The notes under the pieces were generated by a model. It was not told the DNA's origin. It searched no databases and saw nothing but the letters and a program-made list of their open reading frames with translations. The position numbers were made by a program, and so were the translations under genes. From Crossaster papposus (Eukaryota > Echinodermata > Asteroidea > Velatida > Solasteridae), in the NCBI GenBank assembly GCA_037893245.1, contig JBAIAA010000451.1, positions 310,001 to 374,000 on the forward strand: a DNA stretch of 64,000 nt, read 5' to 3'. Shown here piece by piece: positions 7,261 through 44,423 of this stretch (position 1 is its first letter; the number at the start of each line of letters is the position of its first letter).

Positions 7261-8296
7261 ATAGCACAAATAGTACCGCTATACTACCAATGCTATATGT
7301 ACCTTTTGAAATATTCTATCCATCACCAACGCACGTGCCTCATAGGCCTATCCTGTATATATTCTCACACAAATTTAAGGTCTTGTAAATAAAACAAATT
7401 TTAAAGGGTGTTGTGTGAACATCGATCTAAAATTAAATGCGTTGATTATATTTTATTTTAATATATTTTAAATCTTTGGATAACAAAACAACTAAAACCA
7501 GGGCTTCCTCGGGAAAGGCAAAAGTTAAAGATAACTGTCATAAAATGTTGTTTGAGTGGGGGGGGGGGATTATCATATTTTATGAATGTAAAAACAAAAT
7601 GTACATTAAAAATTGTATTTGTTTATGCACTAACTATGTATTATGTGTGTGTACCTATGAATGAGATTTTAACTACCCAAAAAATGTAAGAGATATATAC
7701 ACCATTTTTACCATATTTGCAAGATTTGAAAAAACATGCATGTCCGACTTGCATAATTTTACTAAAAACAAGTCGCACTTATTGTTTGTTTACGTTGAGA
7801 TACATTTGTGACACTATCAAGCGCAATGAGTCGGATGTCGGGGAATCCCAAAAATGTTTTAATCAGAACTGTGTTCTTCGTTGGTATTTAAACAAATTTA
7901 CATAACTCGACAACAAAACATCGTATCAACATGTTTTTTTATTTTTTTTTAAACGTGCAGATGCCCTCTTTAAAACTACATGAACACTCATTTTTGGACT
8001 GGGGCCGACATCCGACTCATTCCGCTTGATCGTGTCACATTTTTTACATCTTTTAAGCTCTTCATATTTCGGCTTCAATATTTTCAGAATCAGAAATTGC
8101 GCCCCAACTTTACTTGAATACGACTCTAACTTAAATTCACTTAAAGTAAGACTTGCATCATAAATAAAGCCGAATAGGCCACACAGCATTTTCTGTTTGT
8201 GTATTGTGTAGACACAGTGATTGTAACACTCGTCTACTTTAACCCCCCCCCCCCCTTCCACCCCCGGAAACCGTGTTCTATTTGACCCAACCCTTT

Positions 8297-8365
8297 TCTA
8301 AGTCAAAATGACACTTTTCCGGGTTTAAAATTAATGACAGTTTTTCGTATCCAAATGACACACAT
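8297..8365. repeat. Inverted-orientation degenerate minisatellite arm, unit 1
   Basis: Copies of (aa)atgacacttttccgggt, the reverse complement of the 21-bp repeat that follows, so the locus is a tandem array flanked by a short opposite-orientation array. Confidence 0.7.
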
Positions 8366-8396
8366 TTGAGTCGGAGCAATGTCATAATTTATTATT

Positions 8397-8812
8397 GACC
8401 ATGAAAAGTGTCACGTTGACCCGGAAACGTGTCATATTGACCCGGAAACGTGTCATATTGACCCGGAAAAGTGTCATATTGACCCGGAAAAGTGTCATAT
8501 TGATTCGGAAAAGTGTCATATTGATTCGGAAAAGTGTCATATTGATTCGGAAAAGTGTCATATTGATTCGGAAAAGTGTCATATTGACCCGGGAAAGTGT
8601 CATATTGACCCGGGAAAGTGTCATATTGACCCGGGAAAGTGTCATATTGACCCGGGAAAGTGTCATATTGACCCGGGAAAGTGTCATATTGACCCGGGAA
8701 AGTGTCATATTGACCCGGGAAAGTGTCATATTGACCCGGGAAAGTGTCATATTGACCCGGGAAAGTGTCATATTGACCCGGGAAAGTGTCATATTGACCC
8801 GGGAAAGGTTTC
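8397..8812. repeat. 21-bp minisatellite, about 20 copies
   Basis: Consensus gtgtcatattgacccgggaaa, with a central block of gattcgg variants. Because 21 is a multiple of three and no stop is generated, three frames stay open for 136-150 codons. These are not genes. Units 2-4 keep only three or four degenerate copies at the same place. Confidence 0.95.
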
Positions 8813-9765
8813 ATGCTAAACGTAACCCGCATTCTAGTCGAGTCTGACCTGGGTGTTTCGTTTAGCAGCTCGACGTTTCAACCAGTGTATAATTTAGTTA
8901 ATCACATAAAGGTTTCTTGACATAAATATTTCGAAATCGATTTCCTTTGTTTCACTTATAAATACTACACATGCATGAGTACGAGTGCATCACTGAGCCA
9001 GATTTATTATTAAAGAGTGACTACACCAGGTAATTTGGAGGAGTGGTTTATTTTATGACACAACAGTTTGTTATAAACTAATACCTGATTTTGTTACGTG
9101 ATTTTGGCACTGCTTACCTGTACTGGAAAAAGCTTCCTTTTCTATTGTTGTTTATTTGTTGTTGCCTTTGTAATTAACCCGTGAAAATAATTCATAAAAC
9201 ATTAGTCAATAGACCACCTCAAAGGTCACATTGGATCCGTCCAAGCTAAATATAACCGACATGCTTGACAAAGATACAAAGTCCAGTTTTATAAAACCAA
9301 TATATTTAGGAAAATGTTTATGTCGAGTATATATTGAGATACATACATTGAGCCTATCTGATACCATCACATGCTGATACAATAGGCCTACTGTCAGACG
9401 AATCAAGTGACTTCGTGGGCACAGTTATTGGTTACAACTATCAGACTAATGCAGGTACCAACAACTTGTGGTCTTGGTGAGTACGCAGCACGGGTATTTG
9501 TTATTCCGAGTAGATCAATAGTTAATGGCAATATCCAAATCACGGCCTCCAAAAAAATAAGCCTATGTATTGATGACGTCACACTTTGTTCACAAAGTCA
9601 TGTACGCGTTTCTGTGGGACTACGAAACCATCGTCCTGAACTGTGCAAGTGTGACGTTATCCGTATACATGTAGAGGCTTATTGCAAGCGTACCTCTGAA
9701 GTACAGACGCACCAGTAATTTGTTTGCCTAATTAAACACAAGTTATTAGTGACTGTCGTCCAAGA
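8813..9765. other. No recognisable gene; upstream region of TRIM copy 1
   Basis: Conserved in all units, with short frames only. Contains at 9,267-9,275 the single GACAAAGAT that is the empty target of the 205-bp MITE of units 2-4. A TRIM promoter and first exon may lie here but I cannot place them. Confidence 0.4.
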
Positions 9766-10060
9766 AGTGGCCTCGTGGTTTAAAGTTTTGAATTTGTAAT
9801 TTGTAATCTGCGTGTGTCCTTGGGCAAGGCACTTTGTCACTCATTGCTTCTCTCCACCAAGGAGTAACTAGGTACACGTAAGGGCAGAGATGGTTATTAT
9901 GGTTGATTTAGCTGCTTTGCGCCGAAATGGCAGCATTGAGCTGTATACTCCCCAGGGAGCTGAGATAGTATTTCGAATTTTTCATGGGCCAACTGACCGG
10001 GGTAATAATGTAATGAAAGCGCTTTGATAACGTTGGTGATAAAGCGATATAATAATAAGC
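9766..10060 (+). mobile_element. tRNA-derived SINE, unit 1
   Basis: Starts at an A-box-like gtggcctcgtggttt, followed by cttgggcaaggcactt, gcttctctccacc, ctgtatactccccaggg and a tail ending aagcgctttgata. This resembles a common echinoderm SINE from memory. The B-box stretch is missing. Units 2-4 keep only its head (20,308-20,347 in unit 2). Confidence 0.75.
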
Positions 10061-10249
10061 ACCGCACATTTGTATTTATCAGTATTAAAGCATCGGGTAC
10101 CGAGAGGCTGCATCATCAGGCACGATTCTAGAGCCAATATTTTAGGGGTCTAGACCCTTCTAACGCGACGTCAACTTCCAACTTTCGCTACTGTATTTTC
10201 CAGCATGTAATTTGTGTAATGCTACGAACGTTTAAGGGGTCTAACCCAT

Positions 10250-10264
10250 TTTTCCTTCTTTCAG
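10250..10264 (+). promoter_or_regulatory. Predicted 3' splice acceptor upstream of TRIM copy 1
   Basis: A pyrimidine-rich run (tttttccttctttcag) ends in AG at 10,263-10,264, 62 bases before the ATG. The bases after it (attgttggcactgcc) are conserved in all four units while the sequence before diverges in unit 1. This suggests a 5'UTR intron ending here and a noncoding first exon further upstream that I could not locate. Confidence 0.5.
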
Positions 10265-10326
10265 ATTGTTGGCACTGCCGGCAATGACAGACTATGCTGT
10301 AAATTTTTGAGTTTTTGTGTCCGTTC

Positions 10327-11256
10327 ATGATGGCCACTGGAGCCAGCGATTTCTCGGTGTGGAGCAAAGTATTTGAAGAGCACCTAGTACAATGCCCAGT
10401 CTGCCAAGACTACTTCAAGCAGCCCAAGATTCTCAGCTGCCAGCACAGTGTCTGTGAAGCCTGCCTGGAGAGGGAGAAGGTGTCAGAAGTGTCATCAAAA
10501 ATCGAGTGCCCGGTCTGCTGGCAGGTAACGGTCCTTCCGCCGGACGGTGGCGTATCGGCGCTCCGGACCAACTTCAGGCTGGTGGATATGGTAGAGGCGG
10601 CGCACAAGCTCCACCAGAGGCAGCGGGGTTCCGTGCCTGTCTGCAGTGCGCACGGCTGGAAGGAGAGCCGCCTCTACTGCCAGACCTGCCGGAAGCTGAT
10701 TTGCGAGGTCTGCACCGGCGAGGCCCAGCACAGCGGGCACGAGCATCAAGCTGTTGGGGCCGCGGCGTCCGAAGCCAGGCGGGCCGCCGAGGGATCCATC
10801 ACCGTTATCCATACCCTCGGCAAGGATCTGGAGGGGAAACTGAAGGCGATCCAGGAAGCAGAGCGAGATCTTAAGACCGCCGCCAAGGACAGCCGCCAGG
10901 ATGTGGTCCAGCGGGCCAACGAGGAGATGGCTAGAGTCAGGGCTGCCAAACAACGTTTCAAGGATGAGATTGACACCACGGAGAAGGCCAGAGTCCGGAT
11001 GCTCGCAGACTGCAAGCGCCAATGCGCGGTCATGGCGGAGAGCTTGAAATCGGCGGTGGACGGGTACCGTGCGGCGGTCGACAGCGGGAACTACGCCGGC
11101 GATTTCGAGTTTGTCTCGCTCCAAACGAAGATCGCGGAGCTGGCTGAGCTGGGAGGGCGCAAGGCGCCCGAGGTCGATCTCGCGTTGTCTGTGTTGAGGT
11201 TCGAGAGGTTTGAACCAGAAGAAAGCATTCGTCTGGGTCGATTGGTGGATAAATAG
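10327..11256 (+). CDS. TRIM-like RING/B-box/coiled-coil protein, copy 1
   Basis: A 309-codon intronless frame. The start is the first of two adjacent ATGs, in the same place as in the other three copies. Visible domains: a C3HC4 RING near residues 23-64 (CPVC, CQH, CEAC, CPVC), a B-box type 2 near 106-138 (VCSAH, YCQTC, ICEVC, HSGH), then a charged, alanine-rich heptad region of about 110 residues that should form a coiled coil. Known family role: cytosolic E3 ubiquitin ligases, often in innate immunity; that role is inferred here. No NHL, B30.2 or filamin domain follows before the TAG stop, so the protein is shorter than most TRIMs. It is GC-rich against AT-rich flanks. It differs from copy 2 at about 20 residues and one inserted valine (residue 21), and is the most diverged copy. 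No AATAAA lies within about 2 kb downstream on this strand. Confidence 0.88.
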   Translation: MMATGASDFSVWSKVFEEHLVQCPVCQDYFKQPKILSCQHSVCEACLEREKVSEVSSKIECPVCWQVTVLPPDGGVSALRTNFRLVDMVEAAHKLHQRQRGSVPVCSAHGWKESRLYCQTCRKLICEVCTGEAQHSGHEHQAVGAAASEARRAAEGSITVIHTLGKDLEGKLKAIQEAERDLKTAAKDSRQDVVQRANEEMARVRAAKQRFKDEIDTTEKARVRMLADCKRQCAVMAESLKSAVDGYRAAVDSGNYAGDFEFVSLQTKIAELAELGGRKAPEVDLALSVLRFERFEPEESIRLGRLVDK

Positions 11257-11787
11257 GATGTGTAATGCAATGTAAACGACAAACCCTAAAGAAACGAGCG
11301 TATAAGTATAAAGATAAAACACTAGAACAAGTAAACCATTCCTCGATAAGTAAACTAACATTAACCTCTTTCGACATCCTACAGATATTGAAGCCTAGTT
11401 ATACCGAGTTGTTACCTTTGTTAACAGAACCATTAGGTATGCAATGCATGCTTATATAAATCAATATTGAAGTATCTATAAATCCATGATTGTGGGTATA
11501 GGCTACTACGTTCATTGTCGTTTAGTTTTCAGGCCAAGACTGCAACGGACATTATTTTACACCAGAGGGAGACGAAATAGAACAGCGCCCTCTCTAGTTA
11601 CATTCGGCGTATTATTGTGGCGCATTTCAGATTTCATGTCTAATGTATTTGTATATAGCGATAAAATGATTTCTACGCTGATGAAGGAGAACACAAAAAG
11701 CCTTCTTGACGGTTAAAATTGCTATATTGCTTAGTGTGTGTCGCTAGTATTCTAAATTCGTAATTCAACAATGTGATGGTTGGATAA

Positions 11788-12179
11788 AGGGATCGTATAC
11801 GTTTGGTAATTGGAACCCAATGTTTGTCTCGATCCTATATAGTTATAGATATATACCATAAAACTAACCTGTGAAACTTTCATTTCAAAAGGTGGTAGCG
11901 ATTTTGAGATATTGCCGAAAATCTGGAGCGGTTATGTCCACGCAGAAATAATAATCTGCATTGGAATACACAGTCTGAAAAACGTCACTGCAGTAACGCT
12001 TTTCAGATTCAAATTTTTTGGGATATACAAAAGTGATATAGTTTTCCATAACCGCAGTACTTCGAAGCGACAAGTTTATAAAAATGCATTATACTATCTA
12101 AAGCTGCTGTACCTCTTACCAAGTAGGTTTTATTGCCATTAATGTTTGGAGTAATTACCAAACGTATACGATCCCTTTA
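11788..12179 (+). mobile_element. GATCGTATACG MITE, unit 1
   Basis: About 390 bp with long inverted ends: gggatcgtatacgtttggta at left, taccaaacgtatacgatccc at right, and paired interior blocks. The right end abuts TTTAA. Full relatives lie at 22,412, 30,075, 40,820, 49,143 and 63,667. Confidence 0.9.
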
Positions 12180-12394
12180 AGACTGTCATGTGAAAGGTGG
12201 AATATACCTTTTGCATCTATCCAAAAAGTAACCAACCAAAATACTGTTGAAAAGCTTACTTGTTGTAAAGATATTAATGATATTGATTCTAAACTCCCTG
12301 TAAAATTATTCCGTCTGGCATGTTGTCATTTTAAAGAAAATTATCAAAGAATGTCAATTCCAAATGTGCGTCTCGGAGACGTACATTTAAACAT

Positions 12395-12520
12395 TTCCGC
12401 AAATAGTGCGCACGAGTGTTCGAACGACGCGCGGTGCACGCGTTGGCGCTACTATTGGTCAGTTCAGTGCGTGACACGCGAGTCGCTGCAGTCCGCTGGC
12501 TGATGAGGACGCGCCCTGAA
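12395..12520. promoter_or_regulatory. CpG-rich patch with inverted CCAAT box, unit 1
   Basis: A short CpG cluster with ctattggtcag, conserved in units 2-4 (about 23,135, 30,800 and 41,545). It could be a promoter, but no downstream gene is apparent. Confidence 0.25.
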
Positions 12521-13946
12521 GGCAAATTGTGGTCGCAATTCAAATTGTGACCCGGCAAATTTTGAATTGAAATCGAACTCTTAGAATATTTTTTTCTCTT
12601 AGAATATGCATCATTCACAGAGCTAGAACTGTACAAGGTTAGTTGGCAAACACATTTCTCTATAATTTGAGCATCTTTTCTGCTTCAAACTGTACAAATG
12701 CACAACTGACAAATTAATGGTCCATTGTCCCTTTAATATATACACAGGTGCCATACGTAGTTAATTATGTCAGCTGTAGCTCACTGGACGCAGCATACTC
12801 AAGCACACCAAGTAAGACAACTTCTGTGGATTTCATTTGTTGTTTCGAAGTAACCATTTTTTTTCAATCACAAATTGTAAAGAACGCCCTCTGTTGGAAA
12901 TATACCGCACGTTTGCAGAATAATGTTCATAGTCTGACCCAGATTCAGTTCGTTGCCCCACATGTTTAGGCCTAGACGATGTTTTTTGTTCGAGAAAAAA
13001 CCTGTAGTTTATATAGCGACCTTGCCGGTTCCAGCCGTTATTTTGATAACACTCTAACGGACAGGTCGTGCATACTTTTTCACCGAATCGGGGTAAAATT
13101 GTAAACACGTTGGCAGTGGCACGCGCATCAAGGCCTTTTACGAGCAAATACCAAAACTCCATCGAGTATAACGCTTCAAATACGCTGCTTAAATACTATA
13201 GACTTGTGCTGGCCGGTATGTTATTTAAATGAAGTAAGAACTAAGATAAGTAGTACGAAAAGTAAGATAAGAAAAAGTGTAGTGGCACTTTTCTAACGAG
13301 GCTTTTCTGTTAATTTAGATAAACGGCGAGAGTTTCTATTGTGAATACTAGTTTAAAGGAAACATGTAATAAGGATTTTTGTTGCTTAAATCAATAAAGT
13401 ATAATGTTGACAACAACATTATGTGTGTAGTTGTGTTAATTTTCTGTGATAAATCGGGGAAAATAATATTTGAAAAATGTGGTTAAACCACTCCGCCCCT
13501 CGAAGGGAAGCCTCATTAACATAAAACCTCGCGAGGGGTATGACGAAAATGGAGGCAGAGACTCGACGCGCTGCTATACCCGGCCTATCGTATACTGACT
13601 GCGCGCATTGCAACAAGTGTCCGTCTTTACATGTCTTTTCATTCTGAATCAGGGTAAAAATACAACAGTTTTCGGTCATGCCGACTAGGTATGTAGCTGC
13701 TAATACACATACACATTTAATACACATAAATATATTAAATTAAAACAACAAATGCGTAATGAAAATGTTAGACTGCATGTTTCCTTTAATGGAATCCATA
13801 GCCTAAAGAAGTAACTTACGTCACTTTAGCGATTTGGTTTATTGTGAGCTATCGTAACAATTACAAAACCCCATCTTATGCACGGCCAGTCGACCTATTG
13901 CTGACGAGTAATTTATTAATTAGATATTGGACAAGCTACACTTTGG

Positions 13947-14215
13947 AATGCGCCGTATTCCTGGTCGCATGAGGGCGCTATAAGACGCCATTTCCCGGGT
14001 ACCCAACACAGGTAAAATCACGTTTAATGAAGTAGTTTAGTAACTTTACGTTTATCTAAAAATGGAATATTGAAAAATGTAAATTTTTGGAGCTGTAAGA
14101 ATATGTAAACTGACGTGAATTATCTTCTAATCACTTTTATTTATACCCCCAATACCGTTAGCACAGCGCACTCAACGTTCAAAAATATGGCTTATTGTAA
14201 TATAACAGTGGAAGA
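13947..14215 (+). mobile_element. GCCGTATTCC MITE, unit 1
   Basis: Left end gcgccgtattcctggtcgca with gagggcgct, right end gcacagcgcactcaacgttc. Repeats in unit 3 at about 32,343-32,611 and, reversed and interrupted, at 46,785-47,370. Confidence 0.75.
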
Positions 14216-14277
14216 TTAGACGTAGTCGGGCATACTTTCTGATCTTTTGAACCCTTTTGAAGCATGTTAACCTGGTA

Positions 14278-14759
14278 TCATACTATAATTCGAGCAATAC
14301 TATAATTCGAGCAACGTTTGTCTGTCTGTCTGTCTGTCTGTTTGTTTCGCTACTCCTCCCAAGTCCTTGGTCCGATCTCGCCCAAACTTGGTGGGTGGAT
14401 GTAAGTTGACCCCAGAATTGCCCTTGAGGGGTTCATTTTTGGAAAGGTCAAGGTCACTGGGGTCAAAGGTCAAATGTTCGTTTTTCGCTACTCCTCCCAA
14501 GTCCTTGGTCCGATCTCGCCCAAACTTACGGGTACGGGTACGTAAGTTGACCCCAGAATTGCCCTTGAGGGGTTCATTTTTGGAAAGGTCAAGGTCACTG
14601 GGGTCAAAGGTCAAATGTTCGTTTTTCGCTACTCCTCCCAAGTCCTTGGTCCGATCTCGCCCAAACTTACGGGTACGGGTACGTAAGTTGACCCCAGAAT
14701 TGCCCTTGAGGGGTTCATTTTTGGAAAGGTCAAGGTCACCCACGGGTACTTTTGACTAG
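14278..14759 (+). mobile_element. Helitron-like non-autonomous element, unit 1
   Basis: Begins TC and ends CTAG (CTRR), sits exactly between A and T with no target duplication, and has a small ACCC-AC-GGGT hairpin 12 bases before its end. Inside: two direct copies of atactataattcgagcaa, a GTCT microsatellite and 2.8 copies of a 138-141-bp repeat. Units 2 and 4 show the intact empty site ggta|taaagc (25,156/25,157). All four signs match Helitron (HINE) biology. Confidence 0.85.
14348..14745. repeat. 138-141-bp tandem repeat, 2.8 copies
   Basis: Copies start at 14,348, 14,486 and 14,627. Each full copy contains aaggtcaaggtca and gggtcaaaggtca, direct repeats of nuclear-receptor half-sites. It leaves open frames on both strands that are not genes. 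Confidence 0.93.
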
Positions 14760-14875
14760 TAAAGCAAATACTAATAATGAAGATTTGGGAACATCTACAA
14801 ATATAGATCACTGTTATATAGTGGCATAGCTATACGGGGACGCACGTGTCCCATCCTCTTTCCCATCGAAGCCCA

Positions 14876-15219
14876 TTTTTTCCCAAACGACATCGCCATA
14901 AAACTGTTTTTTAGTGAATCTGATTGGTTGTTTAACATATACGTCATCCATTCATCCATGTGTCGCATTGCATGACGTGTACTAGGGTAACAAAAGCCCA
15001 GAGTCCTAGGGTCAAAAAGGGCTAGGGTTAGGGTTAGGGTTAGGGTTAGGGTCAATAAGTTGAGAGTCCTAGGGTCAATAAGTTGAGAATCCTAGGGTCA
15101 ATAAGTTGAGAATCCTAGGGTCAATAAATTGAGAGTACAATTTACTACCATGACGTAACAGATAGCCAATCAGATGCGCTAAAAACCAGTTCTATGGCGA
15201 TGTCGTTTGGTGAAAAAAA
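14876..15219. mobile_element. Foldback MITE with telomere-like core, unit 1
   Basis: Inverted ends cccaaacgacatcgccat and atggcgatgtcgtttgg, with further pairing (atctgattgg/ccaatcagat). The core holds four TTAGGG repeats and about four copies of a 22-bp unit (cctagggtcaataagttgag). Absent from units 2 and 4, present in unit 3 at 33,272-33,615. Confidence 0.85.
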
Positions 15220-15339
15220 TTCGCCCCCCGGTGCTCCCTCCTCATTTGAACCCTTGAATTGCACGCAAACAATTATAATTGCCTTCAGTGAACTATTGCA
15301 AAAATTGGTGCGCACTATACTTGTATATTGGTTCGGGTT

Positions 15340-15510
15340 TGTGACTTATGATCACAAGGTTAGCGGTTCGAATGTATTTCAAAGGTCAAAAGTTCGAAGG
15401 TCATTATGTTGTGTCCTTAGGCAAGCCACTTCACCTCTTGCCTCTCTGTCCCGTCAAGTGGGAATAGAGATATTCCCAGTTGTTTCACGATAGGAAACCG
15501 TAGTTAAACA
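15340..15510 (+). mobile_element. SINE-like segment, unit 1
   Basis: Contains aaggttagcggttcgaat (B-box-like), tgtgtccttaggcaagccac and cctctctgtcccgtcaagtg. Repeats in units 2, 3 and 4. Probably a tRNA-derived SINE fragment. Confidence 0.6.
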
Positions 15511-15739
15511 CAGTTTAACCCTATAGTCGAGCCGCTGGTGAATATTCTGTATTCTTCGTAGGTTAATACAATCGTGGACAAATCTTCATTTTTTTTTTCC
15601 TTATTAAAATTGTCATTTTTGTTCGCCAACCGTGACCTACATGCTCGAGGTTTTTCAGACCCCAAAGCTGAGTACATCGACCCCGGTGGAAAAAAACAAA
15701 AAAAGTCTAGAGTGAAAGAATAAAATGTGGCCGCCGTAG

Positions 15740-15790
15740 ATATTATCCCTGACTCGGCCTAATCTAGCGAGCGCAGCGCGCCCGGCTTAG
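15740..15790. repeat. Palindromic GC-rich segment near unit junction
   Basis: ctcggcctaatc...gcttagccgag forms a hairpin around gcgagcgcagcgcgcc. Present about 60 bases before every unit end (25,840; 34,148; 44,355). Confidence 0.7.
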
Positions 15791-15820
15791 CCGAGGAAAG
15801 TCTTCCGGGAGGTGTTAACA

Positions 15821-15837
15821 GGTAGGTAGGTAGGTAA
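15821..15837. repeat. GGTA microsatellite at unit junction
   Basis: Four GGTA copies join units 1 and 2. The same tract joins units 2/3 (25,910) and 3/4 (34,217). It may have helped misalignment. Confidence 0.85.
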
Positions 15838-16302
15838 ACTATGTAAAAAAACAACTTGTATTTGTTTATATGCACTAATTATGTATGTGTGTACTTCACC
15901 TATATGAATGAGATTTTAACTACCAAAAATGTTGTAAGAGATTTTACCATAATTTGCAAGATTTGAAAACGGATGCACCTCCGACTTGCATAATTTCAAT
16001 GAAAACTAGAACTACGTCTGTTCAAGGAACAGAACATAGGGCTTTTTCGCTTTCGCATTTTTTTAGAGTATTTAAAAAAAAAAACACCCGAATTTAAGTT
16101 AATTTAAACAGATTAAAATAAATTCAAACTGATTAAAACGATGACGTCACACGTTTCTGAACTTTTTGTGCAACTATCTATCACCTAACAACACAAAATG
16201 AGGTGTTATGTTAACACGATCCTTTGCTGAGATATGCCTTCAACGTCTAAAAACGTAATAATTCAAACATAATCGTAATATGACGTAACATTTGTCAACA
16301 TG

Positions 16303-16316
16303 ACGCTAGAGGGCGC
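16303..16316 (+). promoter_or_regulatory. CTCF-like motif 1 (one mismatch) in unit 2 insertion
   Basis: ACGCTAGAGGGCGC, like the other two but with A at the first position. Confidence 0.25.
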
Positions 16317-16887
16317 TTTAACATGTTATGAAGTCACTGTTAACTTTGTTGTTACTTACAACCTAGCCAGCGCCTAACATCGTTGAAAGTAAGTTAGCAT
16401 CGTTTTCCACTTTTAAATTATAAGGCACTTCCGGTTTGGACCAGAATGAAGTGTCGGGTCTTTTTGCATGTAATACAAATTATGAAGACCATGGATTAAT
16501 CTAGCAATTTCTTTAAAAATCTAAATCAGATCTCTTACAGTTGATTTTATATTGATTTTCAAAGATTAAATTTAGAAATATTTGGTTGCTTGTAATCTGA
16601 CACTTGATGACGTCATTGTGACGTAATTAACAGAAACTCGAGATCAGTCTTAACTTTGCTATTTGAAGCAAAAATCTGGATTATATCTATAGCGGTTGAT
16701 TTTTAAGCGACTTTTTAAAGTTTAAAGGATTTTTTAATGTAACTTCCGGTTTGGTGACGTCATAAATATTTCTCTTTCCCAATATGGTCTAAGCATGAAG
16801 CTGATTATATACACCGGTTATAAAGTTATTTCAGCAAACTTCGCAACACACATCAACAGATTAATCATTTTAACCATGTTCAACCTG

Positions 16888-16901
16888 CCGCTAGAGGGCG
16901 C
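16888..16901 (+). promoter_or_regulatory. CTCF-like motif 2 in unit 2 insertion
   Basis: CCGCTAGAGGGCGC fits the consensus CCNSYAGRKGGCRS at every position. Followed by ataacatgttatgacgtc. Confidence 0.4.
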
Positions 16902-17919
16902 TATAACATGTTATGACGTCGCCGGAATTGTTTTGAATAGTTTATTCTAGCCAGACAATAACATCGTTAAAATTAAGTTCATATCATTTTTCACTTTCAA
17001 ATTATAAGGCACTTCCGGTTTTGACCGGAAGGAAGGGTCACGTGATTTCACGCACCTGAGATAAAATGAAGATCCTGGATTATTCTATTAAATAAAAATT
17101 CAAGTTTCGGTCTTTTGCGGTTGATGTTTTATTGATTTTCAAAGATTAAATCAATTCCACCTTTAAGATAAGGTCACGTGGGCCTGATGACGTCTTCCTC
17201 GTGGTGTCTGTCGGCGAGACTGGAGTTCACTATTGGGTCTTCACCTGGGTCAAGTTTATGGAAATGCGACTTTGTTTTTCCGTTAAAAGTGCTTTGAATT
17301 GTGCAAGCAACGTTTACAAAGTCTACGGGGTTGGATTCTGCGTAGCCGAAAGCGTGCTTACCTACCTGTCGTACGCGGCGCCCTTCCCCATGGGCAACTT
17401 GATGACGTCATCCTGTTTCACAGGTTGGCTGCTAGTGTCCTCTTAGGTGAGCGTACATGTGCTTGCACGAACGATGTCAGTGGTGATACATTCGCTCAAT
17501 ACATAATGCACTATCGGTGTATACGTACATGTACTAGCATGTATATTATACGTGTGGCATGCACGCGTAAGGGGTCAATGCTTTTTGCACCTAGGCCAAA
17601 ACGATTACATTTCAAGGGTGCCGCAGGGTATGTTCAAGTTCGTTTTTTGCCCCAAAACACAGGGAAGTTCGAGAACTACTTCTACATTAACCTTTAGAGC
17701 AAAAATCAAGATTGTATCTGTCAGGTTTAATTTTTTAGGAATTTTCAAAGGAAAAGGAGTCTTTTCATTCTAACTTCCGGTCTGGTGACGTCATAATTTG
17801 TTCTTCCCGTCAACTTGTTCCTAGCATGAAGCTGATTAAATACACCTGTTATAAAGTGATTTCAGCAAACTTCGCCACACACATCAACAGATTATTCATT
17901 TTAACAATTTTTCAAACTG

Positions 17920-17933
17920 CCGCTAGAGGGCGC
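17920..17933 (+). promoter_or_regulatory. CTCF-like motif 3 in unit 2 insertion
   Basis: Identical 14-mer and same orientation as motif 2, in the second internal module. Confidence 0.4.
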
Positions 17934-32611: not shown

Positions 32612-32673
32612 TTAGACGTAGTCGGGCATACTTTCTGATCTTTTGAACCCTTTTGAAGCATGTTAACCTGGTA

Positions 32674-33271: not shown

Positions 33272-33615
33272 TTTTTTCCCAAACGACATCGCCATAAAAC
33301 TGTTTTTTAGTGAATCTGATTGGTTGTTTAACATATACGTCATCCATTCATCCATGTGTCGCATTGCATGACGTGTACTAGGGTAACAAAAGCCCAGAGT
33401 CCTAGGGTCAAAAAGGGCTAGGGTTAGGGTTAGGGTTAGGGTTAGGGTCAATAAGTTGAGAGTCCTAGGGTCAATAAGTTGAGAATCCTAGGGTCAATAA
33501 GTTGAGAATCCTAGGGTCAATAAATTGAGAGTACAATTTACTACCATGACGTAACAGATAGCCAATCAGATGCGCTAAAAACCAGTTCTATGGCGATGTC
33601 GTTTGGTGAAAAAAA
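33272..33615. mobile_element. Foldback MITE with telomere-like core, unit 3
   Basis: Copy of 14,876-15,219 with four TTAGGG repeats near 33,421-33,447. Confidence 0.85.
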
Positions 33616-34402
33616 TTCGCCCCCCGGTGCTCCCTCCTCATTTGAACCCTTGAATTGCACGCAAACAATTATAATTGCCTTCAGTGAACTATTGCAAAAA
33701 TTGGTGCGCACTATACTTGTATATTGGTTCGGGTTTGTGACTTATGATCACAAGGTTAGCGGTTCGAATGTATTTCAAAGGTCAAAAGTTCGAAGGTCAT
33801 TATGTTGTGTCCTTAGGCAAGCCACTTCACCTCTTGCCTCTCTGTCCCGTCAAGTGGGAATAGAGATATTCCCAGTTGTTTCACGATAGGAAACCGTAGT
33901 TAAACACAGTTTAACCCTATAGTCGAGCCGCTGGTGAATGGTCTGTATTCTTCGTAGGTTAATACAATCGTGGACAAATCTTCATTTTTTTTTTCCTTAT
34001 TAAAATTGTCATTTTTGTTCGCCAACCGTGACCTACATGCTCGAGGTTTTTCAGACCCCAAAGCTGAGTACATCGACCCCGGTGGAAAAAAACAAAAAAA
34101 GTCTAGAGTGAAAGAATAAAATGTGGCCGCCGTAGATATTATCCCTGACTCGGCCTAATCTAGCGAGCGCAGCGCGCCCGGCTTAGCCGAGGAAAGTCTT
34201 CCGGGAGGTGTTAACAGGTAGGTAGGTAGGTAAACTATGTAAAAAAACAACTTGTATTTGTTTATATGCACTAATTATGTATGTGTGTACTTCACCTATA
34301 TGAATGAGATTTTAACTACCAAAAATGTTGTAAGAGATTTTACCATAATTTGCAAGATTTGAAAACGGATGCACCTCCGACTTGCATAATTTCAATGAAA
34401 AC

Positions 34403-36839
34403 TAGAACTACGTCTGTTCAAGGAACAGAACATAGGGCTTTTTTGCTTTCGCATTTTTTTAGAGTATTTAAAAAAAAAACCACCCGAATTTAAGTTAATT
34501 TAAACAGATTAAAATAAATTCAAACTGATTAAAACGATGACGTCACACGTTTCTGAACTTTTTGTGCAACTATCTATCACCTAACAACACAAAATGAGGT
34601 GTTATGTTAACACGATCCTTTGCTGAGATATGCCTTCAACGTCTAAAAACGTAATAATTCAAACATAATCGTAATATGACGTAACATTTGTCAACATGAC
34701 GCTAGAGGGCGCTTTAACATGTTATGAAGTCACTGTTAACTTTGTTGTTACTTACAACCTAGCCAGCGCCTAACATCGTTGAAAGTAAGTTAGCATCGTT
34801 TTCCACTTTTAAATTATAAGGCACTTCCGGTTTGGACCAGAATGAAGTGTCGGGTCTTTTTGCATGTAATACAAATTATGAAGACCATGGATTAATCTAG
34901 CAATTTCTTTAAAAATCTAAATCAGATCTCTTACAGTTGATTTTATATTGATTTTCAAAGATTAAATTTAGAAATATTTGGTTGCTTGTAATCTGACACT
35001 TGATGACGTCATTGTGACGTAATTAACAGAAACTCGAGATCAGTCTTAACTTTGCTATTTGAAGCAAAAATCTGGATTATATCTATAGCGGTTGATTTTT
35101 AAGCGACTTTTTAAAGTTTAAAGGATTTTTTAATGTAACTTCCGGTTTGGTGACGTCATAAATATTTCTCTTTCCCAATATGGTCTAAGCATGAAGCTGA
35201 TTATATACACCGGTTATAAAGTTATTTCAGCAAACTTCGCAACACACATCAACAGATTAATCATTTTAACCATGTTCAACCTGCCGCTAGAGGGCGCTAT
35301 AACATGTTATGACGTCGCCGGAATTGTTTTGAATAGTTTATTCTAGCCAGACAATAACATCGTTAAAATTAAGTTCATATCATTTTTCACTTTCAAATTA
35401 TAAGGCACTTCCGGTTTTGACCGGAAGGAAGGGTCACGTGATTTCACGCACCTGAGATAAAATGAAGATCCTGGATTATTCTATTAAATAAAAATTCAAG
35501 TTTCGGTCTTTTGCGGTTGATGTTTTATTGATTTTCAAAGATTAAATCAATTCCACCTTTAAGATAAGGTCACGTGGGCCTGATGACGTCTTCCTCGTGG
35601 TGTCTGTCGGCGAGACTGGAGTTCACTATTGGGTCTTCACCTGGGTCAAGTTTATGGAAATGCGACTTTGTTTTTCCGTTAAAAGTGCTTTGAATTGTGC
35701 AAGCAACGTTTACAAAGTCTACGGGGTTGGATTCTGCGTAGCCGAAAGCGTGCTTACCTACCTGTCGTACGCGGCGCCCTTCCCCATGGGCAACTTGATG
35801 ACGTCATCCTGTTTCACAGGTTGGCTGCTAGTGTCCTCTTAGGTGAGCGTACATGTGCTTGCACGAACGATGTCAGTGGTGATACATTCGCTCAATACAT
35901 AATGCACTATCGGTGTATACGTACATGTACTAGCATGTATATTATACGTGTGGCATGCACGCGTAAGGGGTCAATGCTTTTTGCACCTAGGCCAAAACGA
36001 TTACATTTCAAGGGTGCCGCAGGGTATGTTCAAGTTCGTTTTTTGCCCCAAAACACAGGGAAGTTCGAGAACTACTTCTACATTAACCTTTAGAGCAAAA
36101 ATCAAGATTGTATCTGTCAGGTTTAATTTTTTAGGAATTTTCAAAGGAAAAGGAGTCTTTTCATTCTAACTTCCGGTCTGGTGACGTCATAATTTGTTCT
36201 TCCCGTCAACTTGTTCCTAGCATGAAGCTGATTAAATACACCTGTTATAAAGTGATTTCAGCAAACTTCGCCACACACATCAACAGATTATTCATTTTAA
36301 CAATTTTTCAAACTGCCGCTAGAGGGCGCTATAACATGTTATGACGTCACCAATATTTTTTTTGAAAAATGCATTGTAGCCAGACACTAACATCGTTGAA
36401 AGTAAGTTCATATCATTTTTTACTTTCAAATTATGAGGCACTTCCGGTTTAGACCGGAAAGAAGGGTCACGTGATTTCACGCACACGAGATAAAATTAAG
36501 ATCCTGGATTATTCTATCTATTGCCACAAAAATTAAGTTTCGGTCTTTTGTGGTTGATTTGTTATTGATTTTCAAAGATTAAATCAAGTACACCTTTAAG
36601 ATGACGTCACGTGACCCCTGATGACGTCACCATTACGTTTTTCGGCGAGACACGAGTTCACTATAGGGGGTTCACCTGGGTTAAGTTTTATGGAAATACG
36701 ACTTTGTTTTCTATTAAAAGTGACTGGCAGAAAAAACGTGTACAAAGTCTATGGAGTTTAGGTTACTAAAAGAAAAAAAGAAGAAAAAAAAAAATCAGAA
36801 CAAAAACAAAGGCTTTTTCGCAAAATTTGCGAAAAAGCC
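34403..36839. mobile_element. 2,437-bp unclassified insertion, unit 4
   Basis: Same length and site as the unit 2 insertion, so it was copied with the unit, not inserted twice. CTCF-like motifs are at 34,699-34,712 (one mismatch), 35,284-35,297 and 36,316-36,329. Confidence 0.85.
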
Positions 36840-37794
36840 AACAAGTCGCACTAATTATTTGTTTACGTTGAGATATTGTGTACATCTTTTAAGCCCTTCA
36901 TAGTTCGGCTTCAATATTTTCAGAATCAGAAATAGCGCCCTAACTTTACTTGATTACGACTCTAACTTAAATTCACCTAAACTAAGACTCGCATCATAAA
37001 TAGGGCCGAATAGGCCACACAGCATTTTCTGTTTGTGTAATGTGTAGGCACAGTGAATGTAACGCTCGTATACTTTACCCCCCCCCCCCCCCCCGGAAAC
37101 CGTGTTCTATTTGACCCAACCCTTTTGTAAGTCAAAATGACACTTTTCTGGGTCCAAATGACCGTTATCTGTGTCCGAATGACACCTTTCTTGTCCAAAT
37201 GACAGATTTTCGGGTCCAAATGACACATTTGAGTCGGAGCAATGTTATTTATGATTGACCATGAAAAGTGTCATATTGACCAAGAAAAGTGTCATTTAGG
37301 AAAGTGTCATATTGATTCAGGAAAGTTTCATGCTAAACGTAACCCGCATTCTAGTCGAGTCTGACCTGGGTGTTTCGTTTAGCAGCTCGACGTTTCAACC
37401 AGTGTATAATTTAATTAATCACATAAAGGTTTCTTGACAGAAATATTTCTAAATCGATTTCCTTTGTTTCACTTCTAAATACTACACATGCATGAGTACG
37501 AGTGCATCACTGAGCCAGATTTATTATTAAAGAGTGACTACACCAGGTAATTTGGAGGAGTGGTTTATTTTATGACACAACAGTTTGTTATAAACTAATA
37601 CCTGATTTTGTTACGTGATTTTGGCACTGCTTACCTGTACTGGAAAAAGCTTCCTTTTCTATTTTTTGTTTATTTGTTGTTGCCTTCGCAATTAACCCGT
37701 GAAAATGGATTCATGAAATAGTAGACAATAGACCATCTCAAAGGTCACATTGGATCCGTTCAAGCTAAATATAACCGAAATGCTTGACAAAGAT

Positions 37795-37999
37795 TAGTCT
37801 TGTTTGCAAGACGATCTTCGCGATGCGGGGCGCCCTCCAACGTATGCCGTAGACCACGCGCGCAATGACCTTCGCTAAGACGTAACTTCGGTTATCCAAG
37901 GTCATTGTGTGGATGGTACGGCGTACGTTAGAGGACGCCCGCATCGGCGGCCTACGCGCGCTGCATACCGCGATTAAGATCGTCTTGCAAACAAGACTA
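37795..37999. mobile_element. 205-bp Mutator-like foldback MITE, unit 4
   Basis: Same insertion as in units 2 and 3 with GACAAAGAT flanks. Confidence 0.93.
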
Positions 38000-38373
38000 G
38001 ACAAAGATACAAAGTCCAGTGTTTAATAAAACCAATCTATTTAGGAAAATGTTTATGTCTAGTTTACATTGAGATGCAAACATTGAGCCTGTCTGGTACC
38101 ATCACATGCTGATACAATAGGCCTACTGTCAGACAAATCAAGTGACTTCGTGGGCACAGTTATTGGTTACAACTATCAGGCTAATGCGGGTATCAACAAC
38201 TTGTGGTCTTGGTGAGTATGCAGCACGGGTATTTGTTATTCCGAGTAGATAAATAGTTAATGGCAATATCTGAATCACGGCTTCCAAAAAAATAAGCCTA
38301 TGTATTGATGACGTCACACTTTGTTCACAAAGTCATGTACGCGTTTGTGTGGGACTACGAAACCGTCGTAATG

Positions 38374-38582
38374 AACTTGCTTAGCACAAACAAGTCTTGG
38401 TCATTAAAAACAGGTTAACAGCCACAATTCTATGTGTTTTTCATGCTAAGCAAACAACCAGCTGATTATCAATCAAACATTAAAGATCGCGTGAACATTT
38501 GGTCTGTTACCTTTTTTTGCCAAGGACAAATTTTCATGCTAAGCATATTTTTGTGCTTAGCAGCTCTGTGAAATTGGCCCCA
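38374..38582. mobile_element. GCTTAGCA MITE, unit 4
   Basis: Same insertion as 19,966-20,173. Confidence 0.8.
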
Positions 38583-38904
38583 GTATAGAGGCTTATTGCA
38601 TGCTTACCTCTGAAGTACAGACGCACCAATGATTTGTATGCCTAAATAAACACAATTTGTTAGTGTCTGTCGTCCAAGAAGTTTGCGGGTCGATTGTTGT
38701 ATAAGGAATGCTGTGGCCTCGTGGTTATCTAGCTTTGAATTTGTAATTTGTAGAACCGCGCCTGGCCGCTGCAATCAGTCGTTTCCAACCAAATACATTT
38801 TATAAAACAATACAATGACATTTTATAGAATTCTATTTTAAATTCATATAAGTTCATGCAGGTTATTTGCCTTGCAGCATATTAATCAGTTTAAGATCCC
38901 GTTG

Positions 38905-38919
38905 GCATTTTACCTTCAG
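38905..38919 (+). promoter_or_regulatory. Predicted 3' splice acceptor upstream of TRIM copy 4
   Basis: Same acceptor as units 2 and 3, with AG at 38,918-38,919, 61 bases before the ATG. Confidence 0.5.
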
Positions 38920-38980
38920 ATTGTTGGCACTGCCGGCAATGACGGACTATGCTGTAATTTTTTGAGTTTTTGGTCCGTTC

Positions 38981-39946
38981 ATGATGGCCACTGGAGCCAG
39001 CGCTTTCTCGGTGTGGGGCAAAGTAGGAGAAGAGCACCTACAATGCCCAGTCTGCCAAGACTACTTCAAGCAGCCCAAGATTCTCAGCTGCCAGCACAGT
39101 GTCTGCGAAGCCTGCCTGGAGAAGGAGAAGGTGTCAGAAGTGTCATCAAAAATCGAGTGCCCGGTCTGCTGGCAGGTAACTGCCATTCCGCCGGACGGTG
39201 GCGTATCGGCGCTCCGGACCAACTTCAGGCTGGTGGATATGGTAGAGGCGGCGCACAAGCTCCACCAGAGGCAGCGAGGTTCCGTGCCGGTCTGCAGTGC
39301 GCACGGCTGGAAGGAGAGCCGCCTCTACTGCCAGCCGTGCCGGAAGCTGATTTGCGAGGTCTGCACCGACGAGGCCCAGCACAGCGGGCACCAGCACCAA
39401 GCTGTTGGGGCCGCGGCGTCCGAAGCCAGGCGGGCCGCCGAGGGATCCATCACCGTTATCCAAACCCTCGGCAAGAATCTGGAGAGGAAACTGAAGGCGA
39501 TCCAGGAAGCAGAGCGAGATCTTAAGACCGCCGCCAAGGACAGCCGCCAGGAGGTGGACCAGCGGGCCAACGAGGAGATGGCCAGAGTCAGGGCTGCTAA
39601 GCAACGCATCAAGGATGAGATCGACACCACGGAGAAGGCCAGAGTCCGGATGCTGGCAGACTGCGAGCGCCAATGCTCGGTCATGGCGGAGAGCTTGAAA
39701 TCGGCGGTGGACGGGTACCGTGCGGCGGTTGACAGCGGGAACTACGCCGGCGATTTCGAGTTTGTCTCCCTCCAAACGAAGATCGCGGAGCTGGCTGAGC
39801 TGGGAGGGCGCAAGGCGCCCGAGGTCGATCTCGCGTTGTCTGTGTTGAGGTTCGAGAGGTTTGAACCAGAAGACAACATTCGTCTGGGTCGATTGGTGGA
39901 TAAAAAGGAGTGCTATCAGAAGCCACTGATGTTTATAGCAATGTAA
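38981..39946 (+). CDS. TRIM-like RING/B-box/coiled-coil protein, copy 4, extended C-terminus
   Basis: Identical in predicted protein to copy 2 through GRLVDK, but the TAG stop used by copies 1-3 is an AAG lysine codon here. The frame continues for 13 codons (KECYQKPLMFIAM) to a TAA, giving 321 codons. The extra residues come from former 3'UTR and carry no recognisable motif, so this is a recent stop-loss in one copy. RING and B-box ligands are intact. The acceptor-like AG is at 38,918-38,919 and the MITE-borne AATAAA is at 40,127. Since the other copies end earlier, the extension is probably neutral, though a sequencing error at the single base cannot be excluded. Confidence 0.86.
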   Translation: MMATGASAFSVWGKVGEEHLQCPVCQDYFKQPKILSCQHSVCEACLEKEKVSEVSSKIECPVCWQVTAIPPDGGVSALRTNFRLVDMVEAAHKLHQRQRGSVPVCSAHGWKESRLYCQPCRKLICEVCTDEAQHSGHQHQAVGAAASEARRAAEGSITVIQTLGKNLERKLKAIQEAERDLKTAAKDSRQEVDQRANEEMARVRAAKQRIKDEIDTTEKARVRMLADCERQCSVMAESLKSAVDGYRAAVDSGNYAGDFEFVSLQTKIAELAELGGRKAPEVDLALSVLRFERFEPEDNIRLGRLVDKKECYQKPLMFIAM

Positions 39947-40086
39947 ACGACAAACCCTAAGGAGATGAGCCGTATAAGTATAAAGATAAAACACTAGAAC
40001 AAGTAAACCATTCCTCCATGAGTAAACTAACATGAACTTCTTTTGACATTCTGCTGATATTGAAGCCTGGTTATACTTAGGTGTTA

Positions 40087-40470
40087 GCTAAGTATAGGTT
40101 TGGTAATTACTCAAAAGATTAATGGCAATAAAAACTTACTTGGTAAGAAGTACAGCAGCTTTGGATAGTATAATTCAATTTTATAAAGTTTTCACTTCGA
40201 AGTACTGCGGTTATGGGAAAAAAAAATGTATCCCCAAAAATTTGAATCTGAAAAGCTTTAATGCAGTGACGTTTCTCGGATTGTGTATTCCAATGCAGAT
40301 TATTCTTCCTGCGTGGAAATAACCGTACCAGATTTTCGGCAATATCTCTAAATCGCTACCACCTTTTGAAATGAAATTGTTACAGGTTAGTTTTATGGTA
40401 TATATCTATAACTATACAGCAGTGAAACAAACAGTGGGTTCCAATTACCAAACGTATACGATCCCTTTAA
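40087..40470 (-). mobile_element. GATCGTATACG MITE, first copy in unit 4
   Basis: Same insertion as 21,678-22,061. Confidence 0.88.
40127..40132 (+). promoter_or_regulatory. Candidate polyadenylation signal in MITE, TRIM copy 4
   Basis: AATAAA inside the first GATCG-family MITE of unit 4, 180 bases past the extended stop. Confidence 0.35.
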
Positions 40471-40820
40471 GTATGCAATACATGCTTATATAAATCAATA
40501 TTGAAGTATCTAAAAAGCCATGATCGTGGGTAGGCTGCTGCGTTCATTGTCGTTTAGTTTTCAGGCCAAGACTGCAACGGACATTATTTTACACCACAGG
40601 GAGTCGAAATATAACAGCGCCCTCTCTAGTTAACTTCGGCCTATAATGTGGCGTATTTCAGATTTCATGTCTCATGTATATTTGTATATAGCGACCAGAT
40701 GATTTTTTTTACGCTGATGAAGGAGAACACAAACAGCCTTTTTGACGGCTAAAATTGCTATATTGCTTAGTGTGTGTCGCTAGTATTCTAAATTCGTAAT
40801 TCAACAATGTGATGGTTGGA

Positions 40821-41321
40821 TAAAGGAATCGTATACATTTGGTAATTGGAACCCAATGTTTATCTCGATCCTATATATTATTGTCTCGATCGAAATATTA
40901 GGCCCTCTTAACTTATTTGATTTGTATATTTCAGGTCATTCCAGCCAGTAAGCAGTTTGCAGCAGTTTTAATCTTATTCATCGATCCTATATAGTTAAAT
41001 ATATACCATAAACCTAACCTGTAAAAATTTCATTTCAAGAGGTGGTAGCGATTTTGAGATATTGCCGAAAATCTGGAGCGGTTATTTCCACGCAGGAAGA
41101 ATAATCTGCATTGGAATACACAATCCGAGAAACGTCACTGCATTAAAGCTTTTCAGATTCAAATTTTGGGGGATACATTTTTTTCCCCATAACCGCAGTA
41201 CTTCGAAGTGAAAACTTTATAAAATTGAATTATACTATCCAAAGCTGCTGTACTTCTTACCAAGTAGGTTTTATTGCCATTCATTTTTGGAGTAATTACC
41301 AAACGTATACGATCCCTTTAA
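40821..41321 (+). mobile_element. GATCGTATACG MITE, second copy in unit 4
   Basis: Same as 22,412-22,912 with the nested Penelope-like piece. Confidence 0.88.
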
Positions 41322-42784
41322 GACTGTCATGTGAAAGGTGGAATATATCTTTTGCCACTATCCAAAAAGTAACCGACCAAAATACTGTTAAAAAAGCTTA
41401 CTTGTTGTAAAGATATTAATGATAATGATTCTAAACTCACTGTGAAATTATTCCGTCTGGCATGCTGTCATTTTAAAGAAAATGACAAAAGAATGTCATT
41501 TCCAAATGTGCGTCTCGGATACTTACATTTGGACATTTCCGCAAATAGTGCGCACGAGTGTTCGAACGACGCGCGGTGCACGCGTTGGCGCTACTATTGG
41601 TCAGTTCAGTGCGTGACACGCGAGTCGCTGCAGTCCGCTGGCTGATGAGGACGCGCCCTGAACGCAAATTGTGGTCGCAATTCAAATTGTGACCCGGCAA
41701 ATTTTGAATTGAAATCGAACTCTTAGAATATTTTTTTCTCTTAGAATATGCATCATTCACAGAGCTAGAACTGTACAAGGTTAGTTGGCAAACACATTTC
41801 TCTATAATTTGAGCATCTTTTCTGCTTCAAACTGTACAAATGCACAACTGACAAATGAATGGTTCATTGTCCCTTTAATATATACACAGGTGCCATACGT
41901 AGTTAATTATGTCAGCTGTAGCTCACTGGACGCAGCATACTCAAGCACACCAAGTAAGACAACTTCTGTGGATTTCATTTGTTGTTTCGAAGTAACCATT
42001 TTTTTTCAATCACAAATTGTAAAGAACGCCCTCTGTTGGAAATATACCGCACGTTTGCAGAATAATGTTCATAGTCTGACCCAGATTCAGTTCGTTGCCC
42101 CACATGTTTAGGCCTAGACGATGTTTTTTGTTCGAGAAAAAACCTGTAGTTTATATAGCGACCTTGCCGGTTCCAGCCGTTTTTATGATAACACTCTAAC
42201 GGACAGGTAGTGCATACTTTTTTTTCACCGAATCGGGGTAAAATTGATAAACACGTCGGCATTGACACGCCCATCATGGCCTTTTACGTGCAAATACCGA
42301 AACTGCATCGAGTATAACGCTTTAAATATGCTGCTAATACTGTAGACTTGTGCTGGCCGGTATGTTATTTAAATGAAGTAAGAAATAAAATAAGTAGTAC
42401 GAAAAGTAAGATAAGAAAAACTGTAGTTGCAGTTTTCTAACAAAACTTTTCTGTTAATTTAGATAAACGGTGAGAGTTTCTATTGTGAATATTAGTTTAA
42501 AAGAAACATGTAATAAGGATTTTTGTTGTTAAATCAATAAAGTATAATGTTGACAACAACACTATGTGTGTAGTTAATCAATAATATAAATACAAAAAGA
42601 AAATAATTTTTGAAAATTTTGGTTAAACCACTCCGCCCCTCGAAGGGAAGCCTCATTAACATAAAACCTTGCGAGGGGTATGACGAAAATGGAGGCAGAG
42701 ACTCGACGCGCTGCTACCCGGACTATCGTATACTGACTGCGCGCATTGCATACTTTCTGATCTTTTGAACCCTTTTGAAGCATG

Positions 42785-43655
42785 AATAAGGATAAAACTG
42801 CTGCAAACTGCTTACTGGCTGGAATGACCTGAAATATACCAATCAAATAAGTTAAGAGGGCCTAATATTTTGATCTTAACAAGATCTTCTTCAGAGACTA
42901 AATGGCTGTGTACAAGAAACAAACATATATAGGGCAACATACAACATGATACACATCGTGGATTGAGGAAGAAACTATGGTGGCCCTGAAGGGACTACGC
43001 AGATCGTGAATATTGACGTCAATATTGACGTCAATATTCGCGACTTTGAGGAAAGTCGTGAAATTTGTCGTGAATATTGACGTCAATATTCACGATCTGC
43101 GTAGTCCCTTCAGGGCCACCATAAGAAACACCCAAAAAAAGCACAAAGTCCAATGGAACAATCAACAAAAGTAGGATTAGGCTGAGGGATTAAAGGGTGA
43201 GGTTAGTAAGGGTAGGATCAAAGTTAGGGTAGGAACAAAAAACAGAAGGGAAAAACCACAAGGAAGGGGTCCAGGGTGGAGATCAAAGAAAAGAACTAAC
43301 AAAGAAGTATGAATAGGAGTAATGAGGAGGGGCGGGGGGGGGAGGGTGGGGGGGAGGTTAGGAAAATAGACAGGGGAAACCTGGAGTGAGAACAAACAAA
43401 AACAAAATCCTGGCAAAGAATAAATCTGAAACAGATGACAAATAGAAGAACAAATTGAAGTTAATCATTTCCTAGTTGGATGTTAAGCCCATGTGGTTGA
43501 ATAGTCCGAAGACGATTCATCCAAACGTTCTCCCGGCTGAGGCGGACTGACTCTTTTGAAGCATGAATAAGATTAATACTGCTGCAAACTGCTTACTGGC
43601 TGGAATGACCTGAAATATACAAATCAAATAAGTTAAGAGGGCCCAATATTTCGAT
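42785..43655 (-). mobile_element. Penelope-like element 3' fragment with repeated ends, unit 4
   Basis: As in unit 2, but a second copy of the roughly 90-bp terminal sequence (ctgcaaactgcttactggct...) remains at 43,563-43,655. The fragment thus has direct repeats at both ends, resembling the pseudo-LTRs of Penelope-like elements. CTTTTGAAGCATG occurs three times: 42,772, 43,553 and 43,656. Confidence 0.72.
42978..43123. mobile_element. GGTGGCCC foldback element, unit 4
   Basis: Copy of 24,556-24,701, nested in the Penelope-like fragment. Confidence 0.88.
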
Positions 43656-44423
43656 CTTTTGAAGCATGTTAGTTTCCCTGGTATAAAGCAAATACTAATA
43701 ATGAAGATTTGGGAACATCTACAAAATAATATAGATCACTGTTATATAGTGGCATAGCTATACGGGGGCGCACGTGTTCCATTCCCCTTTCCCATCAAAG
43801 CTCTTCAAAAGCCCGGTGCTCCCTGTTCATTTGAAAACTTGAATTGCGCGTAAACAATTATAGTTGCACAAATTGGTGTGCACTATACTTGTATATTGGT
43901 TAGGATTTGTGACTTATGATCACAAGGTTAGCGGTTTGAATATATGCAGCTGGCCATCATGTTATGTCCTTAGGCAAGCCACTTCACCTCTTGCCTCTCT
44001 GTCCTGTCAAGTGGGAATATAGATATTCCCAGTCGTTTCACGATAGGAAACTGTAGTCAAACACCGACCCAATGACCCACATTTGCTCGTGACGGTCTTT
44101 ACTTACATGCAGTTTAACCCTATAGTCGAGCCGCTGGTGAATGGTCTGTATTCTTCGTAGGTTAATACAATCATAAACAAATCTTCATTTTTCCTTTCCT
44201 TATTAAAATTGTCATTTTTGTTCGCCAACCGTGACCTACATGCTCGAGGTTTTTCAGACCCAAAAGCTGAGTACATCGACCCCGGTGAAAAAAAAAGTGA
44301 AGTAAAGCCTTGAGTAAAAGAACAAAATGTGGCCGCCGTAGATATTATCCCTGACTCGGCCTAATCTAGCGAGCGCAGCGCGCCCGGCTTAGCCGAGGAA
44401 AGTCTTCCGGGAGGTGTTAACAG

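Follow-up and report, generated by a model that had tools for sequence, protein, structure and literature searches.

A small tandem cluster of probable TRIM genes in an asteroid-like echinoderm genome

The stretch of DNA considered here is a 64,000-nucleotide window (C451:310001-374000) of a 1.02-Gb assembly in 1841 contigs. It contains a tandem array of four copies of one open frame, whose predicted product has the RING and B-box of the TRIM proteins (the RBCC family, for RING, B-box and coiled coil). We consider it quite likely that these are four protein-coding TRIM genes, which form a small tandem cluster specific to the lineage of their asteroid-like echinoderm host and operate by the mechanism proposed below. 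The cluster appears to be real but ordinary, a local case of a known gene-family type, and its function is moderately supported.

The array occupies window positions 7590..44424 on the plus strand and, by self-comparison, is composed of four units with differing insertions. Each unit carries one direct, same-strand copy of the frame in a single coding exon, and the starts are spaced 10,245, 7,664 and 10,745 nt apart. All copies lie on the plus strand: g1 at 10327..11256 (309 amino acids, aa; RING, B-box2 and helical region), g2 at 20572..21498 (308 aa), g3 at 28236..29162 (308 aa) and g4 at 38981..39946 (321 aa). The oldest copy, g1, is 94% identical to g2 at the amino-acid level; g3 differs from g2 at three amino acids, and the 924 coding nt of g4 ahead of the stop are identical to those of g2. 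When the assembly was searched with the copy-2 protein, with scoring limited to the best 128 of 1844 first-look candidates, the four array copies were recovered at 94-100% identity, all on C451. Among the matches listed, the next best reached 36% over 262 residues (E 2.4e-40), and those above 36% elsewhere in the assembly were partial, spanning at most 149 residues. An earlier sequence-only reading of this DNA had proposed a four-copy tandem array, and both the four direct copies and the limits at about 7.6 and 44.4 kb agree with it. Opposite all four copies, the minus strand holds open frames of 288-295 aa (10495-11361, 20737-21624, 28401-29288 and 39146-40033). These, and a second plus-strand frame of 217 aa in g2 to g4, were put down to the coding frame as its by-products, although neither set went through a domain search.

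The identity of the product is supported by its zinc-binding domains. In all four copies, Pfam matched a RING (zf-RING_UBOX, E 1.7e-9 to 2.3e-9) and a B-box (E 8.6e-9 to 2e-8) above the curated cut-offs, with g1 entering the scan from its second ATG. All eight ligands of a C3HC4 RING (C22-C25-C37-H39-C42-C45-C60-C63) are present and invariant across the four copies, and so are those of B-box2 (C105-H108-C117-C120-C125-C128-H134-H137, and H139); they were assigned by the consensus spacing. The claims that the copies are TRIM-like and that their RING/B-box frame has kept every zinc ligand are thus sustained. In phmmer searches, TRIM2 and TRIM3 rank first, the best four sequence matches in PDB being TRIM2 (three) and TRIM3. 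The alignments extend past the B-box into the helical region, to residue 251 for TRIM3 and 223 for TRIM72, and AlphaFold2 (AF2) places helices at 144-187 and 191-252 with low confidence.

The order of RING, B-box2 and helical region is that of TRIM subfamily C and the TRIM-NHL proteins (TRIM2, TRIM3 and TRIM71; also TRIM45 and TRIM56). In contrast to the TRIM-NHL proteins (class VII), the window copies are not followed by C-terminal NHL repeats, either within the four frames or in the window, whereas an NHL-bearing relative is found in the same genome (L032 on C669, whole-protein E 2e-10 for NHL). With a coding region confined to the tripartite motif, the copies resemble RBCC-only TRIMs. PMC2533329 reports that a single exon often encodes this motif, that 12 of 18 worm TRIMs consist of it only, and that 15 human TRIM or TRIM-like proteins lack a defined C-terminal domain.

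The copies are of different ages. g1 and g2 differ at 35 of 927 positions of the coding sequence (3.78%) and at 145 of 2621 in the aligned flanks (5.53%); g2 and g3 at 3 of 927 (0.32%) and 56 of 4942 (1.13%); and g2 and g4 at one of 927, which is the stop, and 6 of 5800 (~0.1%). With flank divergence layered in this way (g1 ~5.5%, g3 ~1.1%, g2/g4 ~0.1%), the idea that all copies are equally recent was rejected. A ~380-bp repeat that follows g2, g3 and g4, and is missing there in g1, agrees with g1 as the oldest branch. The most recent layer is a tract of about 12.7 kb: 12392..25141, containing g2, aligns to 30788..43565, containing g4, both on the plus strand. From 12500 on, the pair shows 18 mismatches in 12,631 aligned positions (0.14%) and 50 gap columns. 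To the left (11893-12391), the two places diverge by 4-17% per 100 nt; to the right, past a gap, divergence is 28/745 (3.8%). Next to the right edge of the tract, the alignment has a 2-nt gap at 24911 and no mismatch. Older paralogous DNA thus borders the tract at either end, which points to exchange between units. A long exchange (gene conversion or double crossover), or a duplication followed by further exchange, is a better fit than a single, simple tandem duplication of recent date, and recent reshuffling of the array is supported.

Selection on the copies has moderate support from sequence comparison. Between g1 and g2, the non-synonymous rate (dN) is 0.029 and the synonymous rate (dS) 0.072, giving a dN/dS of 0.40; 19 amino-acid changes are seen where 25.5 are expected with the 35 substitutions scattered, a count as low as this arising in 1.0% of 20,000 simulations. 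The coding sequence is also short of substitutions relative to the flanks, at nominal p=0.037 (g1-g2) and p=0.019 (g2-g3), uncorrected for multiple tests. The g1-g2 flanks hold 17 gaps in 2,621 aligned nt, and a 20-nt gap between these two copies sits just past the stop, outside the coding sequence. The only coding indel is an in-frame one of 3 nt, where about 6 would be expected at the g1-g2 flank rate and about 3 at the g2-g3 rate; taking both together, a Poisson model gives no more than one with a probability of ~0.001.

Several results weigh against a cluster of functional genes. The common stop of the other copies is lost in g4 (TAG to AAG), which reads through for a further 13 aa, and each of the three g2-g3 differences changes an amino acid. 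Stops are absent in 24.5% of the g1-g2 simulations as well, so that an open frame proves little by itself, and stop absence was rejected as proof of selection. At the protein level, the AlphaFold model is poor (mean predicted local distance difference test score, pLDDT, of 45). Strict 3.5-residue heptad periodicity in the helical region was not above shuffles (68.8% of 5000 were as high); periodicity was stronger at 3.6 residues, the shuffle comparison covering 3.5 only. Pfam found no C-terminal domain in any of the four frames, and tblastn of the window with seven C-terminal pieces found no NHL remnant (best E 0.67), on which grounds a lost NHL exon downstream of the gene was dropped. The coiled coil of the earlier reading is accordingly favored by the TRIM3 and TRIM72 alignments and the low-confidence helices, but not by heptad periodicity. 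As for its argument that four open copies suggest selection or very recent duplication, selection is moderately borne out by the dN/dS and the scarcity of coding indels, while the mere absence of stops, together with the lost stop of g4, lends the argument little.

Some of these results lend weight to an unlikely alternative, in which the array is non-functional: a TRIM exon would have been carried passively by recent segmental duplications and would be drifting, still open for want of time. g2 and g4 do lie inside the tract of 0.14% divergence, the g2-g3 differences, the g4 stop and the stop-free simulations are all as drift would have them, and a related block on contig C591 is without the gene altogether. 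However, g1 and g2, at ~5.5% flank divergence, keep a dN/dS of 0.40, and one in-frame coding indel stands against the 17 gaps of their flanks.

The C591 block was first met in a search with the 5' flank of the gene, which it holds. C591:54015-66660 (L047, L048) is collinear with window positions 815-10089, after which the match moves on to 53020-54474; the main pieces are 79-91% identical. No TRIM frame was found in it by tblastn of the protein (best E 2.2 in 20 kb). Comparison of C591:42001-82000 with C451:300001-384000 gave two short collinear pieces leftward (C591:52257-52820 and 46474-46766) and none rightward. The block as the other haplotype is unlikely, given this identity and the little similarity beyond; rather than an allele, it is more probably an old segmental duplicate from which the gene has gone.

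It is very unlikely that the array is partly an assembly artefact, with two haplotypes laid end to end. The halves g1-g2 and g3-g4 do repeat at an 18.4-kb offset, and invertebrate heterozygosity can reach divergence of this order. Yet the near-identical tract gives way to older paralogous DNA at each of its ends, and the units differ in size and insertions. The right flank (44424-49100) has no long second copy among the matches listed, with short matches only at ~47.4-47.6 kb. Furthermore, matches to PF00940 (POLRMT) lie on one contig only, an argument, for the one gene tested, against the assembly being fully diploid. C206 (~530 kb) and the part of C591 near its end (~582 kb) carry TRIM-like frames of 399 aa whose scores are identical; they are either a recent duplicate or leftover haplotype sequence, and hint, in favor of the artefact, that the assembly may still contain some duplicate sequence.

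The gene had been described as intronless. This is correct for the coding region, which is one exon, but the gene as a whole probably has an intron in its 5' untranslated region (5'-UTR), as suggested by a putative splice acceptor ahead of the ATG and a conserved candidate donor further upstream. In g1, alignment suggests that 10265..10326 (plus strand) is the 5'-UTR part of the coding exon, following the acceptor TTTCAG/ATTG (slashes mark putative splice points). The matching exon starts in g2 to g4 are 20511, 28175 and 38920, each with a pyrimidine-rich CAG at the start of the aligned block. This acceptor-like CAG is 61-62 nt ahead of the ATG in the window copies, and the DNA preceding it differs between g1 and g2-g4. 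By its sequence pattern, a candidate 5'-UTR exon end and donor, CTTG/GTGAGTA, lies at 9466..9483 (plus strand) and recurs within 19792-19809, 27456-27473 and 38201-38218; the gene-less C591 block keeps it with one change ahead of the GT. In the group of relatives on C650, C217 and C355, cag/gacg is found ~20 nt upstream of the ATG in seven of seven; the upstream sequence of ten further relatives was judged by eye only. A retrotransposed TRIM cDNA turned tandem gene, for which the single coding exon would speak, is exceedingly improbable: the acceptor-like sequence ahead of the ATG is shared by relatives and long open B-box frames are common in the genome, so the exon structure looks ancestral.

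The sequence around the frames had been taken for mostly mobile-element debris. Dispersed repeats were found in about a third of a unit, covering ~3.4 of the 10.2 kb between the g1 and g2 starts, and that description was too strong. The repeat searches score best candidates only, and the DNA search covered 12500-20560, not 10.3-12.5 kb. Self-comparison places a copy of the ~380-bp family in the g1 unit at 11785-12169. Contig searches located a 141-bp tandem repeat at 14297-14739 and again at 32693-33135, whose sequence is dispersed on many contigs; a 2.4-kb repeat in the spacer at 16002..18400, with a second copy at 34398-36796, that is present on at least 12 other contigs, often head-to-tail; and a further dispersed repeat at 19965-20175. 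Just downstream of g2, the ~380-bp repeat lies at 21683..22061 on the minus strand (self-comparison and contig search); it recurs at the same place behind g3 and g4, and its family is also found at 49142-49536 and on many other contigs. At this search depth, the remainder of 12500-20560 matches the array, C591 or a piece of at most ~105 nt on C359. A Pfam scan of 10 of the 109 stop-to-stop frames of at least 85 aa, three of them well inside the array, yielded none that reached cut-off, and Rfam gave no match at gathering score. Upstream of g1, a 21-bp tandem repeat of 19.8 copies spans 8393-8807; it is much shorter in units 2-4.

The genome is rich in TRIM-like open frames. Among B-box matches in the assembly, the best 150 of 2010 first-look candidates were scored; all 150, on other contigs, exceed the cut-off, 132 are in open frames of at least 300 aa, and 116 fall on 22 contigs bearing at least three each. 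Against this number, four copies make the earlier description of the locus as an active nursery an overstatement. A tree of 28 rows was built from copies 1-3 and 25 of 34 other TRIM loci (L001-L008 and L013-L038). In this tree, the window copies group in a clade to themselves (support 100/100, stem 0.93) on a long branch, and the tree tool warned of long branches; beside it stands a group of 11 rows from C182, C217, C220, C238, C355 and C650 (support 90/84). The RBCC genes on C650, C217 and C355 (L013-L015, L017 and L019-L021) resemble the window copies in having one long open frame, an MMA-type start and an acceptor-like CAG near the ATG, and four on C650 and two on C217 lie close together, as in the window cluster. 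They differ in being only 34-36% identical to the window copies, and six of their frames run on into extra, mostly acidic tails. An NHL-like end read by eye in L016 found no support from Pfam. Many TRIM-like frames of ~428 aa with the same score were also seen on C375, C183, C453, C733 and C418, ~110-310 kb apart on C375; they make up an expansion of their own, which a mobile element may have carried.

The source is an echinoderm, probably of the Asteroidea, and the earlier guess at an echinoderm fits both the mitochondrial code and the asteroid-like gene order. On the mitochondrial contig C1841 (16,330 bp), COX1 is open under the echinoderm code (table 9), some other tables leaving it open as well, and it has AAA at conserved asparagine positions. 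The contig carries tRNA-Glu and tRNA-Thr, with ND2, ND1 and most of a tRNA block coming next on the minus strand and COX1 after them on the plus strand, presumably the starfish arrangement; COX1 was named by Pfam, the tRNAs by ARAGORN and the other genes by reading of translations. PMC6262923 reports one shared gene order for the eight asteroids that it compares, though the passages in question do not print the order itself. COX1-family frames without internal stops, with one 682-aa open frame, also occur on C8 (>5.2 Mb; L039, L041 and L042), which looks like a contig from a bacterial companion or contaminant.

Under the proposed mechanism, each copy would be transcribed from a promoter and a non-coding first exon ~0.7-1 kb upstream, spliced to the one coding exon. 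The predicted product is a RING E3 ubiquitin ligase that would dimerize via its helical region. With no C-terminal recognition domain, substrates may be recognized by the RBCC itself or through pairing with other TRIMs. The cluster may have grown by unequal crossing-over between repeat-bearing units, followed by partial homogenization by exchange. A role in stress or immunity is suggested by family membership only. For the purple sea urchin S. purpuratus, PMC13043383 gives 140 annotated TRIM genes, and it reports TRIM up-regulation in UVB-treated coelomocytes, so that a large echinoderm repertoire with a stress or immune link is already published. No account of this cluster turned up in the TRIM literature, which was covered mostly at the level of bibliographic records. 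A bolder proposal, which we regard as quite improbable, is that the locus is a TRIM cassette variable in presence and copy number: repeat-rich units would let the gene block expand, become homogenized over tracts of ~12 kb or disappear, as it has from the C591 block, and RBCC-only proteins would act as decoys or partners tuning the animal's numerous other TRIM ligases.

Read as a small cluster of protein-coding genes, the locus shows the growth and homogenization of a TRIM cluster in compact, well-bounded form, with four copies of layered age, a gene-less block and clear tract boundaries. Of most interest are the 12.7-kb tract, with its definable ends, and the related block that lacks the gene. 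The larger story lies beyond the window, in the many long open TRIM-like frames that this asteroid-like genome groups on certain of its contigs.

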